DNA from: Nitrospinae bacterium RIFCSPLOWO2_12_FULL_45_22
Lineage (GTDB): Bacteria; 2-12-FULL-45-22
Assembly (NCBI GenBank): GCA_001803565.1
Contig: MHDQ01000102.1
Location: 1 to 6,921, forward strand
DNA length: 6,921 bases
Direction: 5' to 3'
Shown: piece by piece, positions 1-6,315 of the stretch
Position numbering within the stretch: the stretch's first letter is position 1
Layout: the number at the start of each line of letters is the position of its first letter
Notes under the pieces: generated by a model
The model's input: only the letters and a program-made list of their open reading frames with translations
The model's database searches: none
What the model was told of the DNA's origin: nothing
Made by a program: the position numbers and the translations under genes

Positions 1-42
1 TGAACCGAGGCTATACTGCCTTGCGAGGGGTTGTTTGTACCC

Positions 43-71
43 TAGACAATAAAGTTAGCAAGTGGTATATT
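43..71 (+). promoter_or_regulatory. Candidate sigma-70 promoter of the toxin-antitoxin operon
   Basis: A -35-like TAGACA (43-48, five of six consensus bases) and a -10-like TATATT (66-71, five of six) are separated by exactly 17 bases. Transcription would start near 78, only a few bases before the ATG at 81, so the toxin message would be nearly leaderless. No convincing Shine-Dalgarno precedes either ATG 72 or ATG 81, which fits. This is inferred from consensus match and spacing only. Confidence 0.5.
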
Positions 72-80
72 ATGCCATTA

Positions 81-371
81 ATGAAGAGAGCTAAACTGGT
101 ACGGTATATTAAGGTTAAAGAAGACAATGGCAGTATCATGGAGGCTAAGATGTGGCAGGTAGAGCCTTCTCCCGATAAACCTCATGGCTATAAATATTCT
201 CTGGTCTATATTGTAAAAGGCAAACGGGTTATCGGCTATGACAATAGTGAGGGTAAAGGAGACCATAGACATTACGGGGATAAGATAGAGGCATATCAGT
301 TTAAGGATTTGAGGGGCCTTACAGAAGACTTTTACCAGGACATAGAAAGATACAAGGAGGGTAAGCTATGA
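81..371 (+). CDS. tumE: TumE-family (DUF6516) toxin of a toxin-antitoxin pair
   Basis: This gene encodes a 96-residue cytoplasmic protein recognised as a TumE/DUF6516-type toxin, the toxic half of a type II toxin-antitoxin pair. The family signature is visible: HGYKYSLVYI at residues 35-44, then GYDNSEGKGDHRHYG at 52-66, where the YDN, GKGD and HRH residues are the conserved core and probably the active or binding site. The acidic/aromatic C-terminal helix (about 76-92) is also typical. The reading frame is open back to a TTG at 21 and an ATG at 72. ATG 81 was chosen because family members begin with a short basic segment like MKRAKL and because a promoter -10 box covers 66-71. The stop overlaps the next gene's start (ATGA), so the two are translationally coupled. 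The cellular target is not evident from the sequence. Symbol by family resemblance only. Confidence 0.85.
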   Translation: MKRAKLVRYIKVKEDNGSIMEAKMWQVEPSPDKPHGYKYSLVYIVKGKRVIGYDNSEGKGDHRHYGDKIEAYQFKDLRGLTEDFYQDIERYKEGKL

Positions 372-742
372 GGGTAAAAAGGGTCAAGATAGGGATAAAA
401 AGCGTAAAGGATGTTTTAGAGGATTTTGTAACGACAGGTGAGGCGATAGAGCGGGGGGAACGGGTAAAGAAAGAAAAGGGAGTTTACTTTGATAGTATAG
501 AGGGGTTTAGAAAAGCCCTTACTCCAAAGAGGCTAGCGCTACTGACCCTGATTAAAGAGAAACATCCTATGAGTCTTCAAGAACTAGCAAGACTGGCTGG
601 CAGGGATATGAAAAGCATAGTAACGGATATTGAGATACTGGAAGGTCTTGACCTGGTTGTTATGAATCGAAAGAAGAAAGGGCGGAGAGAATCTATCCCA
701 ACGGTTGAATATGATAGGATAGAGATGGAAATAGCGGTTTAG
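368..742 (+). CDS. tumA: HVO_A0114-family winged-helix DNA-binding antitoxin (TumA-like)
   Basis: This gene encodes a 124-residue protein of the HVO_A0114/MarR-like HTH family that pairs with TumE toxins. It should neutralise the toxin by binding it and repress the shared promoter. Residues 1-45 form a charged N-terminal segment. Residues 50-113 look like a winged helix-turn-helix: helices at 52-64, 69-77 (SLQELARLAGRD) and a recognition helix at 80-93 (MKSIVTDIEILEGL), followed by a basic wing around 99-108 (NRKKKGRRES). A strong AAGGAGG at 354-360, seven bases from the ATG, sits inside the end of the toxin gene, and the start overlaps the toxin stop by four bases. The RBS is stronger than anything before the toxin, which should give excess antitoxin. 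Toxin-first gene order is seen in this family. Symbol by family and context only. Confidence 0.82.
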   Translation: MRVKRVKIGIKSVKDVLEDFVTTGEAIERGERVKKEKGVYFDSIEGFRKALTPKRLALLTLIKEKHPMSLQELARLAGRDMKSIVTDIEILEGLDLVVMNRKKKGRRESIPTVEYDRIEMEIAV

Positions 743-837: not shown

Positions 838-2313
838 ATGATAGACTTTATCGAAATAAAACGCTACTTCCCTGTAGAAAGGGAGTATGAAGCTTTTGAA
901 GAAGTAAAAGGGTTTTTCATAGAGGAGTGGAAAAATGCTGTGGATTTATTTAACATCTGGTCATTAATTAATAATTTGATAGTACAGGATTTAAAAGACC
1001 AGGAGATCAAATTAACTCCGTTAAATGTGGAATCGAGGGATAAAGAACTTGTCGAATTAATCAGTAAAAGTTTCTCTGAGTTAATCTATTTGGAGCCGGT
1101 GCTATTCCGAGTTTACCTTCATAACTCTACCCCTCCCAAAGACTCTCTTCTTAGAAAGTGGTTGTGGGATAATTATCTACCAGAAAAGGTTTTGACCAGG
1201 TATTGCGAAGTCCTTCCTGGTATCTTTGACTTACTAAAAGGTAGTGAGTTAGCAAAAAACATCATCCTGGTCGATGGTGAACCCGCCGAGAGTATACCCC
1301 TCAGATTTTTTGTGGTAGGTCAAATACTTGGTAATCTCCTTTTGGAGTTTAAGCATTACAACCTAATAGACCTGGTTAAAGGAGCGGGGGCAAAAGAAGA
1401 AATCGCAGAATTAAGGAAAAACAGGATTTACAAATCCGATGAGGGGAAGGTCTATGATTATTCCCCCTTATTCAAAAAGATACATGGTAAAGATAAGCTA
1501 ATATTGGAAGTATTCACGGAAGAAGATTTTTTGAATCTAGCTGAAGGCGGGCAATCCCAAGCGCAAGCGGCTGATGATATCCTCTGCCAGTTCATTCAAA
1601 ACACCCGGGGTGATGCTAGGGCGGACGAATTATTTGGGCAAGATGATACCTTGAGATATAAACATATTGTCCGTTACGGGTCGCAAGAAAGAGAGATCCC
1701 GATGCAACTATTGCCCAAATACAAAAACCGCATAAAAAAGAAAGTGAGAAGACTAGCATTTACCGATTTGAAAACGAAAGACGGTGATAATGGGCCTTAT
1801 ATACGGTATAAGGAAGAGGAAATTTCCGCAGGAATAGAAGGGCTTTATCTTGGTGCTTTAAGCTGGGACAAAGATAAAGGGCCAGCTACCCCCCATCTTG
1901 TTAAGGCCATTGAATACCATTTGGGGCATACCTTTGAAGAGTTCTCAACCAAAAGCCTGGCCAAAGAAAGATGTGAAAAAGAAAGTTATGAATATGGAAC
2001 AGATAAATTCTTTCAGGAGAGGATACTTAAGGAGAAGTTTGAATCATCCGGCGGCAATCTTGATGAACCGATAAATAACGATACCGAGGATAGTGAAACC
2101 TTTAAAGACACCATTCCAGAGAAAGACATCCGTAGCCCGGAAGAAGTGTTATTACAAAAGGAAAAAGATACTGAATTAGACAAATTTTTTACACAATATC
2201 CGGAGATGATAAGCATTATCGAGAAGGAACAAAAGGGAGAGCCCCTATCGCCAAGAGAGCGAAAAATTAAAGAAAGAAGTTTGAAGAAATACCGCAAGAA
2301 AGATAAAGATTAA
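838..2313 (+). CDS. 491-residue protein of unknown function with a divergent sigma-70-like C-terminal half
   Basis: I do not recognise a named family over the full length. Residues 1-230 are acidic and helical, with many Leu/Phe/Trp and no motif I can assign. Residues 295-370 resemble sigma-70 region 2: a basic helix (YKNRIKKKVRRLAF, 295-308), then EISAGIEGLYLGALSWDKDKG (328-348), where sigma factors have a pattern like xEGxxGLxxAxxxFDxxxG, then an aromatic/hydrophobic helix. Residues 433-445 (SPEEVLLQKEKDT) match the usual linker before sigma region 4. The remaining tail (GEPLSPRERKIKERSLKKYRKK) keeps the rhythm of region 4, but its helix-turn-helix looks shortened. Residues 370-430 are a charged linker. 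The start at 838 follows GAGGAGA at 827-833. A specialised transcription factor of the element, a decayed sigma factor, or a DNA-binding protein of another type are all possible; the sigma assignment is inference from pattern only. Confidence 0.75.
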   Translation: MIDFIEIKRYFPVEREYEAFEEVKGFFIEEWKNAVDLFNIWSLINNLIVQDLKDQEIKLTPLNVESRDKELVELISKSFSELIYLEPVLFRVYLHNSTPPKDSLLRKWLWDNYLPEKVLTRYCEVLPGIFDLLKGSELAKNIILVDGEPAESIPLRFFVVGQILGNLLLEFKHYNLIDLVKGAGAKEEIAELRKNRIYKSDEGKVYDYSPLFKKIHGKDKLILEVFTEEDFLNLAEGGQSQAQAADDILCQFIQNTRGDARADELFGQDDTLRYKHIVRYGSQEREIPMQLLPKYKNRIKKKVRRLAFTDLKTKDGDNGPYIRYKEEEISAGIEGLYLGALSWDKDKGPATPHLVKAIEYHLGHTFEEFSTKSLAKERCEKESYEYGTDKFFQERILKEKFESSGGNLDEPINNDTEDSETFKDTIPEKDIRSPEEVLLQKEKDTELDKFFTQYPEMISIIEKEQKGEPLSPRERKIKERSLKKYRKKDKD

Positions 2314-2702: not shown

Positions 2703-4397
2703 ATGAAAGAGATTAAACCGACATTGAGCCCAGAGCATTTGGCCGATCTGCACAAGAGCGGATTGCTTGATGAAACGATTGAGCAGGCGGGCCTTTACAG
2801 CGTTTGCCCCAGCGAGATTCAGCGGGTACTCGGCTTTGATTCCCCTGAGCTTGAATCCCTTCTTGCCTTTCCCTATCCCGGCTGTAATGGCTTTACACGA
2901 TTTAAGTTGTTCCCATCTTTGGAAACGAAAGGTGGGGGCACGATGCGATATTTTCAGGAAAAAGGGTCTGGGCTTCATATTTATTTTCCCCCTGGGTTTG
3001 ACCATAGCGCTGAGGTTATCAGGATCTCGGAAGGAGAGAAGAAGTCGTTGGAAGGGACCCAGGAGGGTCTTAATGTCTGTGGCTTGGGTGGAATCTGGAA
3101 CTTTGCCCTAAGAGATAATAATGGGAATCCCCAATTAATAGAGGATTTCCAGCGCTTAGATTTTAGGAGCGTGAGGAGTATTGAAATTATTCCAGACGGA
3201 GACTTTAAGCAGAAAGAGGGGGTTCGGCATGCAGTCTATAGGCTGGCTTATCTGTTAGGAGGGGAGTTCTACAATAAGAAAGGATATGAGTCTCTCTCGG
3301 AAGCTGTTGATTGCATACGGGTGGTAGAACTGCCTCTCTATTTTAAGCTGGATGATTTTCTTTGTGAATACGGGGTTCGGGCATTTGAAGGGCTACCCAG
3401 GATTACCGTTGCAGACCGGATTTTTGACGACATCAGGGAAAAAGAGCGGAAGGAGGTAACTCGCATTGACTTACAGGATTCCCTCATTGGCTTGAAAACC
3501 TTACTGACCATGGATATTCCTGGACGACCCCGGTTATTCCTTTGGCTGCCCCAAGGTGGTCTTGCGATGGTTTATGGCCCAAGGGGTATAGGGAAGACAT
3601 ACTTCTCCCTTTCTCTGGCCGTGTCTCTTGCTACTGGCAAGTCCTTTTTGCGGTGGGCTGCTCCACCAGAGACGGGGGTTCTTTTAGTTGATGGAGAGAT
3701 GCTGATATCGGACTTGAGAGAGCGGCTCGTAAACCTACTACCGCATGAACCCGCAAAGCCAATTAGCCTCTTATCCGGGGAACAGGTATTTATGAAGATT
3801 GACCGGGACTTAAACTTAGCGGATCTGGAATTTCAGGCAGCCGTTATAGGATTATTGGAGGCTAATCCAGAGCTTCGAGTTGTGGTCGTTGACAATATTT
3901 CATGTCTCTTCATGGGGTTAAAGGAATCTGATAAGAACGATTGGGAGAAGGTTATACCCTGGCTCCTAACACTTCGGCGACGGGGAATTAGCGTTGTATT
4001 GATACACCATTCCGGAAAGAGCGGCGACCAACGTGGCACCAGTGGCCGGGAAGATATGCTTGATAGCGTCATCCGGCTTGAATCAGTCCCGGGCAATCAA
4101 AATGAGGGCGCACGGTTTATTGTCAGATTTACAAAATGTAGGGGAGCCTATGGCAAGGACATTGAGCCTTTTGAAACAGTGTTAGACCTTAACAATCCCG
4201 AAGCTTGGACCTGGAAACCGCTTGAGGAGTCGAATTTTGAGCGGATGATTGAGTTGGCAAAAGATGGGGTTGACACTGTGAATGATATGGCTAACGAATT
4301 GGGGATTTCAAAAGGAATGGTAAGTAGATTAAAAAAGCAAGGAGTTAAGAAAGGAATGTTGAAAGATGGCCGGAAAATCATCCCAATTGAAGGCTAA
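2703..4397 (+). CDS. Fused primase-helicase: DUF3854 Toprim-like domain plus AAA_25/RepA-like ATPase
   Basis: This 564-residue protein looks like the replication protein of the element. Residues 1-235 form a DUF3854 (Toprim-like) domain: RISEGEKKSLEG at 107-118 supplies the conserved glutamate, and IIPDGDF at 162-168 supplies the DxD metal-binding motif, as in primases and topoisomerases. Residues 262-480 form a RecA-fold ATPase of the AAA_25/RepA hexameric helicase type: Walker A GPRGIGKT at 292-299, VLLVDGEM at 326-333, Walker B VVVVDN at 393-398, and the sensor segment LIHHSGKSGDQRGTSGRED at 433-451. Residues 515-550 look like a helix-turn-helix (DTVNDMANELGISKGMVSRLKK). The start at 2703 has GGGGG at 2690-2694 eight bases upstream. 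The stop codon touches the first 9-mer of the array at 4397-4618, so initiator and candidate origin are adjacent. Known families suggest unwinding and primer synthesis; iteron binding by the C-terminal HTH is inference. Confidence 0.88.
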   Translation: MKEIKPTLSPEHLADLHKSGLLDETIEQAGLYSVCPSEIQRVLGFDSPELESLLAFPYPGCNGFTRFKLFPSLETKGGGTMRYFQEKGSGLHIYFPPGFDHSAEVIRISEGEKKSLEGTQEGLNVCGLGGIWNFALRDNNGNPQLIEDFQRLDFRSVRSIEIIPDGDFKQKEGVRHAVYRLAYLLGGEFYNKKGYESLSEAVDCIRVVELPLYFKLDDFLCEYGVRAFEGLPRITVADRIFDDIREKERKEVTRIDLQDSLIGLKTLLTMDIPGRPRLFLWLPQGGLAMVYGPRGIGKTYFSLSLAVSLATGKSFLRWAAPPETGVLLVDGEMLISDLRERLVNLLPHEPAKPISLLSGEQVFMKIDRDLNLADLEFQAAVIGLLEANPELRVVVVDNISCLFMGLKESDKNDWEKVIPWLLTLRRRGISVVLIHHSGKSGDQRGTSGREDMLDSVIRLESVPGNQNEGARFIVRFTKCRGAYGKDIEPFETVLDLNNPEAWTWKPLEESNFERMIELAKDGVDTVNDMANELGISKGMVSRLKKQGVKKGMLKDGRKIIPIEG

Positions 4398-4618
4398 AAG
4401 TTTATCAAAGTTTACCGAAAGTTTACTGGTAAACTCGAAAAGTTTACCAAATTGGATAGGTAAACTTTACCCTTTTATTTTAGTAAACTTTTTGCTGAGA
4501 TGCTTTGCTGATGCCAATAAAAAAGTTTACCAGAGGGGTAAACAAACAAAAAGTTTACAAGGGTAGTAAACTTTTTGTTTACCGAAAGTTTACTGGTAAC
4601 GATTAGCTAGTAAACTTT
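4397..4618. repeat. Iteron array, candidate origin of replication
   Basis: The gap between the primase-helicase and the next gene is filled with the 9-mer AAAGTTTAC. Exact forward copies are at 4407-4415, 4418-4426, 4439-4447, 4522-4530, 4550-4558 and 4585-4593. Exact reverse copies (GTAAACTTT) are at 4460-4468, 4483-4491, 4566-4574 and 4610-4618. Variants are at 4397-4405 (last base T), 4429-4437, 4538-4546, 4574-4582 and a degenerate one at 4596. Most copies form convergent pairs: 4420-4426/4429-4435, 4439-4448/4459-4468, 4483-4493/4520-4530, 4544-4558/4566-4580 and 4585-4593/4610-4618. A 23-base segment at 4410-4432 recurs exactly at 4577-4599. The loop of the third pair contains TTTGCTGA twice (4491-4498, 4504-4511). 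AT-richness and position behind the initiator gene fit an origin; a multi-site operator or partition site is the alternative. No real protein is encoded here. Confidence 0.8.
4544..4580. repeat. Perfect 15-bp inverted repeat with 7-base centre inside the array
   Basis: AAACAAAAAGTTTAC (4544-4558) and GTAAACTTTTTGTTT (4566-4580) are exact reverse complements separated by AAGGGTA. It is the longest stem of the array. On ssDNA it could form a hairpin serving as a primer-initiation site; on RNA it would be a weak, AT-rich, bidirectional terminator-like stem with a T-tract. Both roles are inference. Confidence 0.6.
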
Positions 4619-4633
4619 ATCAGGATAAAGAAA

Positions 4634-5173: not shown

Positions 5174-5318
5174 CCCAGGCATGATCCATATCCTGATCCC
5201 TAAGGCCCTGCTTATCTTGACACGGGATGAATATATCAGGGCCATAAAGCGAGGCAAGGCATACAAGCGCAGAGAGGCCCTAGAACAGCGGATAGCAAAT
5301 AATGGCACAGGAAAATAA
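5163..5318 (+). CDS. Small basic 51-residue protein overlapping both neighbours
   Basis: An ATG at 5163 opens a 51-codon frame ending TAA at 5316-5318. It overlaps the end of the zinc-ribbon gene by 11 bases and the start of the PC4-like gene by 17 bases, and fills the otherwise unused 128 bases between them. GGAGG at 5149-5153, nine bases upstream, is a good ribosome binding site that serves no other start. The product has a short hydrophobic stretch (residues 8-19, IHILIPKALLIL) followed by a basic helix (LTRDEYIRAIKRGKAYKRRE, 19-38). The LTRDEY...RGKAYKRR pattern recalls small uncharacterised proteins of phages and plasmids, but I cannot name a family. An internal ATG at 5181 would give a 45-residue version. 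Confidence 0.7.
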   Translation: MNNSPGMIHILIPKALLILTRDEYIRAIKRGKAYKRREALEQRIANNGTGK

Positions 5319-5526
5319 GCTGGTAGCTGAATTCCAGAAAAGCGATATTGAGATAGTCAGGGTATCCCTAACGCAGTATCGGAACAAGGACTATTTTGAT
5401 ATTCGGCTCTACTACCAGGAAGAGGGGGAATGGAGGCCCACTAAGAAAGGGCTATGCCTATCCCAGGGCTTATTCCTTGAATTTAAGAAAGCTGTCAGGG
5501 CGCTAGAAAAGGCCCTGGCTAAGTAG
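5302..5526 (+). CDS. PC4/p15-family ssDNA-binding protein
   Basis: This gene encodes 74 residues matching the C-terminal domain of transcriptional coactivator PC4 (p15/Sub1, bacterial YdbC-type). Three beta strands are visible: DIEIVRVSLTQYR (15-27), KDYFDIRLYYQ (29-39) and WRPTKKGLCLS (44-54). A C-terminal amphipathic helix follows, LFLEFKKAVRALEKAL (57-72). The KDYFDIR and PTKKGLCLS segments carry the family's typical pattern of aromatics and basics used to bind ssDNA as a dimer. The start lies inside the 51-residue gene upstream with only a weak AGCGGA (5287-5292), suggesting translational coupling. Its operon sits directly after the candidate origin, so a role at melted or lagging-strand DNA during replication, or in transcription of the element, is the natural inference. 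Confidence 0.82.
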   Translation: MAQENKLVAEFQKSDIEIVRVSLTQYRNKDYFDIRLYYQEEGEWRPTKKGLCLSQGLFLEFKKAVRALEKALAK

Positions 5527-5544: not shown

Positions 5545-6315
5545 ATGGATCAAGAAAAAATTTTGACCCTGTTTAGGCAAGGCAAAGGCATAAAGGCTAT
5601 CGCTAGAGAATTAAACACTTATCCCAACGCTATAAAGCGGGCCCTGGTTAAAATGGGGGTCTATAATGTCCCCCTTGAGGATAGGGTGACAACAACTAGC
5701 AATCAGGTGACAAACGATAACCAGTTTAGTAAACCATCTGATAATCAAACTGCTCTGAAACAATACAAGAAAGCCTTATGCAAAAATTCCGATACTTGCT
5801 CTGTATGCGCCCTTGAACCAGATAAACTCAAGCTGCTTGAGGAGTTATATGTTGCAGGTACTCCTGGCCCAGTGCTGCATAATTACTTTAACATACCCTC
5901 TAAAGACCTTGGCGGTCATGCTTTCCAAAAAAACTGGCATAAGCAAAGGGCCGGGATTGAAAACCCCGAACGTAAACGGATTATAAGGCAAATGATAGAG
6001 GACGAAACCTGGAAAGTTGTTATGAAATCTAAGTCCGAGGGACAGGCAAAGGATAAATTAGGTGGTTTGAAGTTATTGGGTGAGATGGAAGGGTTAGGGA
6101 TGGGGACTAAAGAGAAAGACCAGCAGCCGGTTAACATTGGAAGGATCATTAATCTAAGATTCAGCTTGAACGATTTATCAGAGCAGCAGAGGGGGCGGGC
6201 GCAGGCGATGATGGATCAGATCAGGAAAAACTTGGGTTTGCCTGAGGTCGAGGCCGAGCCTGAGACTGGCTTTTTGGAGTTGATCCCAGATCAGCATTCA
6301 GAAGAGCAAGAGTAA
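5545..6315 (+). CDS. HTH and CxxC protein of unknown function, possibly phage/terminase-small-subunit-like
   Basis: This gene encodes 256 residues. Residues 5-40 form a helix-turn-helix of the resolvase/transposase type (ILTLFRQGKGIKAIARELN, then recognition helix NAIKRALVKMGVY). A Thr/Asn/Gln-rich linker (45-70) follows. Residues 79-135 contain C79, C85, C88 and H126, H132 around a second helical segment (KLKLLEELYVAGTPGPVLHN), suggestive of a zinc-bound HTH. Residues 140-190 are helical and basic, and the tail (235-256) is acidic. This CxxC-HTH-His arrangement followed by a helical LGGLKLLGE stretch reminds me of small terminase subunits and related phage DNA-binding proteins, but the match is weak and no large terminase gene is seen. 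AAGGAGG (5528-5534) lies ten bases before the ATG. The stop TAA shares its last A with the ATG of the next, broken gene, whose product is a paralogue of this protein's N-terminal HTH. Confidence 0.75.
   Translation: MDQEKILTLFRQGKGIKAIARELNTYPNAIKRALVKMGVYNVPLEDRVTTTSNQVTNDNQFSKPSDNQTALKQYKKALCKNSDTCSVCALEPDKLKLLEELYVAGTPGPVLHNYFNIPSKDLGGHAFQKNWHKQRAGIENPERKRIIRQMIEDETWKVVMKSKSEGQAKDKLGGLKLLGEMEGLGMGTKEKDQQPVNIGRIINLRFSLNDLSEQQRGRAQAMMDQIRKNLGLPEVEAEPETGFLELIPDQHSEEQE

Follow-up and report, generated by a model that had tools for sequence, protein, structure and literature searches.

In classical iteron plasmids, the replication origin consists of direct repeats at helical spacing together with a DnaA box and an AT-rich melting region. 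The ori and crr iterons of P4 are repeats bound by the alpha protein, and the hallmarks of PICIs are a gene order with int and terS and induction by a helper phage. P4 alpha unites a TOPRIM-type primase, a helicase and C-terminal winged-helix origin binding in one protein (summarised in PMC4234260). SaPI Rep and Cch2 use their C-terminal domain to bind short repeats situated just downstream of their own genes, which in the case of the SCCmec-encoded Cch2 are AAGTG repeats (PMC7581432), and the origins of PICIs are likewise found immediately 3' of rep (PMC6092414). All of these known self-locating initiator helicases (P4 alpha, SaPI/PICI Rep and Cch2) belong to helicase families other than the RepA-fold family considered here. 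A description of an initiator of the fused RepA-fold type was not found in the open literature, which does not prove its absence.

The stretch of DNA analyzed here, referred to as the window, is an entire contig of 6921 bases (C102) from the draft genome of a member of a poorly sampled phylum. It carries an array of short repeats directly behind a gene for a RepA-like helicase.

The iteron array

The array spans 222 bp (4397-4618) and comprises 14 core sites in both orientations, ten of which are exact copies of AAAGTTTAC and four of which are variants. Its start coincides with the last base of the stop codon of the helicase gene (2703-4397). The exact copies are all located within 4407-4618, with six on the plus strand and four on the minus strand. 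One-mismatch matches to AAAGTTTAC number 12 in the window compared to 2.4 expected by shuffling, and none of 200 shuffles reached at least 12. Furthermore, the core hexamer GTTTAC is found 13 times within 4396-4620 versus six times across the remaining 6.7 kb. A first-pass annotation made from the sequence had reported ten exact 9-mers and about five variants within about 220 bases; the exact copies are confirmed, while the variants that could be placed number four, at 4397 (AAAGTTTAT), 4429 (minus strand), 4538 (minus strand) and 4574 (plus strand).

The sites are arranged in a left block (4397-4491) and a right block (4522-4618) with seven sites each, separated by a site-free gap of 30 bases (4492-4521) in which no clear AT-rich melting element is seen; the AT content over the array peaks at just 0.70, and the gap is not distinctive in this respect. 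The left block opens with direct repeats, the sites at 4397, 4407, 4418 and 4439 being spaced 10, 11 and 21 bp apart. A block of 23 bp, GTTTACCGAAAGTTTACTGGTAA, which contains two sites 11 bp apart, occurs on the plus strand at 4410-4432 and again as an exact repeat at 4577-4599. The ten exact sites show a best helical period of 10.5 (p = 0.02), which is no more than a hint of phasing within the window itself. Near the array, neither a DnaA box nor an excess of promoters was detected, and an RNA-element search gave no Rfam match at the array. The GC skew does not change sign there, in a window that at 6.9 kb is too short for this measure to be informative.

The putative primase-helicase-initiator protein

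The open reading frame upstream of the array (2703-4397, plus strand) encodes a protein of 564 amino acids with a DUF3854/TOPRIM-like region, a RepA-like AAA_25 helicase and a C-terminal helix-turn-helix. The helicase core, a RecA-like domain with Walker motifs, is matched over residues 281-442 (3543-4028, plus strand; Pfam AAA_25, 1.2e-24). RSF1010 RepA is the best solved relative spanning the core of the helicase family profile (E 2e-13), in agreement with Foldseek (TM-score 0.74 by target length). The N-terminal part may be a TOPRIM primase, as suggested by a weak Pfam match to DUF3854 at residues 106-185 (3018-3257, plus strand; 1.7e-5) and by the motifs EGEKK and DGD. In an AlphaFold2 model built on 33 sequences, this region is of low confidence, whereas the pLDDT is mostly above 90 from residue 261 onward.

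The C-terminal helix-turn-helix is located at residues 507-549 (4221-4349, plus strand) and is supported by both the model and a family profile, with an E-value of 4e-22 for a profile that has the window protein itself among its seed sequences. The model places its three helices at residues 507-520, 526-533 and 537-549 with a pLDDT above 90, and the recognition helix (ISKGMVSRLKK) starts at residue 537.

Arrays beside related helicases

When the window helicase was used by itself, peptide-pattern searches yielded no relatives in genomes or viral contigs. Relatives were retrieved through alignments of distant relatives, by profile-guided searches of IMG/VR and other genomes. A close relative for comparison was absent because the phylum of the window is represented by only two genomes in the searched set. 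The survey sample consisted of 89 helicases that are less than 80% identical and have at least 400 bases of downstream sequence available, and an array was scored as a significant repeated word by shuffling in three equal windows per locus.

A short-repeat array was found within 450 bases downstream of the helicase gene in 50 of these 89 non-redundant relatives, compared to 2 of 78 upstream windows and 2 of 87 windows at +900 to +1350 (p = 1e-15 for downstream versus upstream, pooled). The first set contributed 28 arrays directly 3' of 53 helicases, against 1/47 upstream and 2/51 further downstream. This result is repeated by a second IMG/VR query set, which overlaps the first in lineage, with 22/36 directly 3', 1/31 upstream and 0/36 further downstream. 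Looking beside other helicase genes of this kind had been proposed in the first-pass annotation, and the link it drew between origin-like iterons and the primase/RepA-like helicase stands. Its view that the layout is unusual does not, as both orientations are present in every array of a first check of 25 arrays. The array is not peculiar to the window, and dozens of viral relatives share its layout.

The presence of an array depends on the C-terminal extension of the helicase. Mixed-orientation arrays follow 47 of the 77 helicases that have such an extension and none of the 12 without (p = 5e-5), by a both-orientations criterion that was adopted only after the data were seen. With this criterion dropped, a one-direction repeat appears in two of the 12 short proteins, which end at the core; these are possibly coding repeats. 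Under the shuffling test, no significant mixed-orientation array was detected behind the remaining 30 of the 77 extension-bearing helicases. Across the 47 arrays, the median distance from the stop codon to the first repeat is 21 nt, and the commonest site spacing is a tandem 11 bp. Arrays follow the helicase gene regardless of which genes lie downstream.

Two loci deviate from the common pattern: L051 has a CTAGTCT array upstream rather than downstream of the helicase gene, and L040 has two alternating repeats, GGATCAAAC and CTGAAACCC, in a single array downstream of the helicase.

Co-variation of site and recognition helix

The repeated words are lineage specific and include GTTGCG, TGATTCA, TGATTACC, GGTTAA, TGGGACA and AGTACCC, among others. 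For the 39 arrays whose helix-turn-helix can be aligned, the similarity of the sites tracks that of the recognition helices (r = 0.41, p = 0.0003), and the relation persists once helicase similarity is controlled for (partial r = 0.30, p = 0.0003). Site and helix also remain correlated in the 572 pairs whose cores are dissimilar (r = 0.17-0.18, p = 0.0007-0.001), whereas core similarity shows no link to site similarity there, and the relation in these far pairs also holds in 35 strictly significant arrays. The far-pair effect is modest, since it was nil in an earlier set of 22 loci (138 pairs) and emerged only with 39 loci.

Four recognition helices start with KG: those of the window (ISKGMVSR), L095 (ITKGRVSQ), L173 (LSKGQVSK) and L032 (VAKGTISK). 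Their sites are GTTTAC, GTTTA, GTTTCC and GTTTCC, respectively, and no other site among the 39 is of the GTTT[A/C]C type, a match that was spotted after the fact and that includes one array, that of L032, with p = 0.01. L095 has the same AAAGTTTA site as the window, yet the two helicases are only 31% identical and L095 has an NrS-1-like N-terminal module, unlike the primase module of the window protein. The comparison of helices and repeats suggests a putative code leading from recognition helix to iteron, which is testable.

A scan of IMG/VR for the site of the window at the DNA level alone returned 18 viral stretches with three dense arrays, all of which are in replication modules, namely at the L095 locus, in the neighborhood of a Prim-Pol/DUF3987 gene and in a DnaD/DnaB_2-type initiator gene. 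L136 and L139, which are the two ends of one viral contig of 25.6 kb, both have dense AGTTTAC arrays beside the Prim-Pol/DUF3987 gene; these may belong to a single array that spans the junction of a circular genome. In L137, an AGTTTAC cluster (9277-9511) lies within the DnaD/DnaB_2-type replisome-organiser gene. Genes of this type are known to contain the origins of some phages.

The carrying element

The right end of the contig (6847-6921, plus strand) consists of 75 bases identical to another contig, C20 (L149). Past this overlap, C20 continues with a sequence resembling the 3' end of a tRNA (GGTTCGAGTCC...GGAGCCA), followed by apparently ordinary chromosomal genes. The tRNA-like sequence is a probable attachment site; ARAGORN detected no whole tRNA gene on this stretch of C20 or on the stretch of C222 described below, which fits the presence of just the 3' part, so that the assignment is made from the sequence. 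The window also encodes an excisionase-type protein and has a match to the Rfam int-alpA RNA (RF02996; 753-820, plus strand; 37.6 bits with a cut-off of 35.8), positioned between the gene of a TumA-like antitoxin and an orphan ORF of 491 amino acids rather than between int and alpA. Together, the attachment-site-like end, the excisionase and the int-alpA RNA point to an integrated mobile element to which the window would belong, and which may be a prophage, a satellite or an island of another kind. The ends of the contig do not overlap, and no integrase was seen on the contig, which holds an incomplete element.

Several neighbors deserve mention in their own right. At the left edge (3-742, plus strand), a TumE-type toxin and an HVO_A0114-type winged-helix partner form a TumE/TumA-like toxin-antitoxin pair. 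The 491-residue ORF (838-2313, plus strand) has no Pfam or PHROG match and only a weak sigma-70-like stretch at residues 408-464. Behind the array, a small protein resembling PC4, the transcriptional coactivator p15 (5302-5526, plus strand; E 2e-14), is likely a single-strand DNA-binding protein. A sister element on contig C222 (L150, minus strand) has similar helix-turn-helix and excisionase genes and likewise terminates at a tRNA-3'-end-like sequence. It encodes a DUF3854 paralogue that is 45% identical over the N-terminal part; its downstream domain is different and no array follows the gene.

Proposed mechanism and alternative readings

We consider it very likely that the array is the replication origin of an integrated element, or the initiator-binding part of that origin, read by the helix-turn-helix of the helicase encoded upstream, which would load itself. 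The C-terminal domain would recognize the sites as duplex DNA, with many helicase monomers binding to the clustered and largely 11-bp-phased sites. A host loader would not be needed for the bound monomers to assemble into a hexameric ring on the site, and synthesis would be primed by the fused TOPRIM domain. The initiator may also repress its own gene, which would be compatible with an origin function.

In the first-pass annotation, the sites were viewed as consecutive convergent inverted pairs whose single-strand hairpins may be the recognized form. On this reading the pairs would extrude as hairpins, as has been proposed for the pRN1 stem-loop origin or for single-strand origins. pRN1 requires a stem-loop of 100 bases downstream of its replication gene (PMC4234260). 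The array strand of the window has strong predicted DNA folding (z = -7.2), which arises because the same word is present in both orientations, and its best inverted pair (4544-4580), with perfect 15-bp arms at 4544-4558 and 4566-4580 and a 7-base spacer, is the longest perfect one and is hairpin-capable, but probably incidental. The order of the exact sites (+++--++-+-) contains three convergent neighbors compared to 2.4 at random (p = 0.45), and the opening sites are direct repeats. Across the 47 related arrays, inverted neighbors are rarer than they would be under random orientation (133 versus 165 +/- 8), inverted spacings scatter without a fixed loop or arm length, no pairing order is conserved and the tandem 11-bp spacing dominates. 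A design of convergent pairs was rejected on these grounds. A helix-turn-helix, such as the presumed reader, normally binds duplex DNA. In Cch2, binding is unaffected by deletion of the inverted repeats and is abolished by deletion of the direct repeats (PMC7581432). Recognition of hairpins is therefore improbable.

Equally improbable is an operator array through which an element repressor (TumA-like, HTH_17 or another helix-turn-helix protein) controls downstream genes or handcuffs copies. The array does sit between two genes and the window encodes several helix-turn-helix proteins, but promoters are not in excess nearby, and arrays in the family track the helicase gene whatever is downstream, depend on the helix-turn-helix of the helicase itself and vary together with it. 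Least plausible of all is a parS-like partition centromere or a pac/cos packaging site for a ParB- or terminase-like protein: the sites are clustered, the helix-turn-helix family profile weakly resembles plasmid ParB and a gene at 5545-6315 has weak phage-type helix-turn-helix matches, but the scanned window proteins gave no ParA/ParB family match and in relatives the array keeps its place at the 3' end of the helicase gene.

On the preferred reading of a self-loading origin, RepA-fold helicases with a C-terminal helix-turn-helix would make up a widespread and hitherto undescribed class of phage and element initiators with private 3' iterons and a decodable helix (KG start to GTTT[A/C]C), a generalization that we hold to be somewhat more probable than its opposite. 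The combination of a RepA fold, a fused reader and sites after the gene would then serve as a simple guide to where the origins of many uncultured phages and elements lie. Such a family would also offer a large number of natural helix-site pairs from which the evolution of helix-turn-helix specificity could be learned, as well as compact replicons for bacteria that have received little study.

Comparison with known replication systems

The window differs from a classical iteron origin in the mixed orientation of its sites and the lack of a DnaA box near the array, and the direct spacing of 10, 11 and 21 bp agrees with the classical pattern only partly. In pRN1, ORF904 also combines a primase, a helicase and a winged helix, and the origin follows shortly after the 3' end of the gene (PMC4234260), the position at which the origin of the window is presumed to lie; unlike the window protein, it has an SF3 helicase and an AEP primase and acts with a single large stem-loop without iterons. 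The cyanobacterial CyRepA is likewise a DUF3854-containing plasmid replication protein, but it has a DEXDc rather than a RepA helicase, and the region reported to be needed is an upstream one rather than a downstream array (PMC10079941).

SaPI/PICI Rep proteins resemble the window in being initiator helicases whose C-terminal domain recognizes iterons directly 3' of the gene, as is presumed for the window, and they sometimes have a fused primase and have two repeat sets, comparable to the putative fused primase and the two seven-site blocks here (PMC7581432; PMC6092414). Their helicases are D5/SF3-like or of the DUF927 type, whereas that of the window has a RecA-like RepA fold (AAA_25) along with a TOPRIM/DUF3854 primase. 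In addition, their iteron sets flank an AT-rich region, while the blocks of the window are separated by 30 bases without a clear AT-rich core. Cch2 belongs to the Primase_Cterm/D5-like helicase family and has just three iterons.

The window protein shares with P4 alpha the combination of a TOPRIM primase, a helicase and a C-terminal winged-helix DNA reader on one chain, as predicted from its sequence and model. The helicase fold of P4 alpha differs from the RepA fold of the window protein, and P4 alpha is absent from the homologues found, the best structural relative of the helicase being RepA. With RSF1010 the likeness is in the RepA-like helicase core itself. In that plasmid the iterons are read by a separate protein, RepC, to which no family match was found in the window, whereas here the presumed reader is fused to the helicase.
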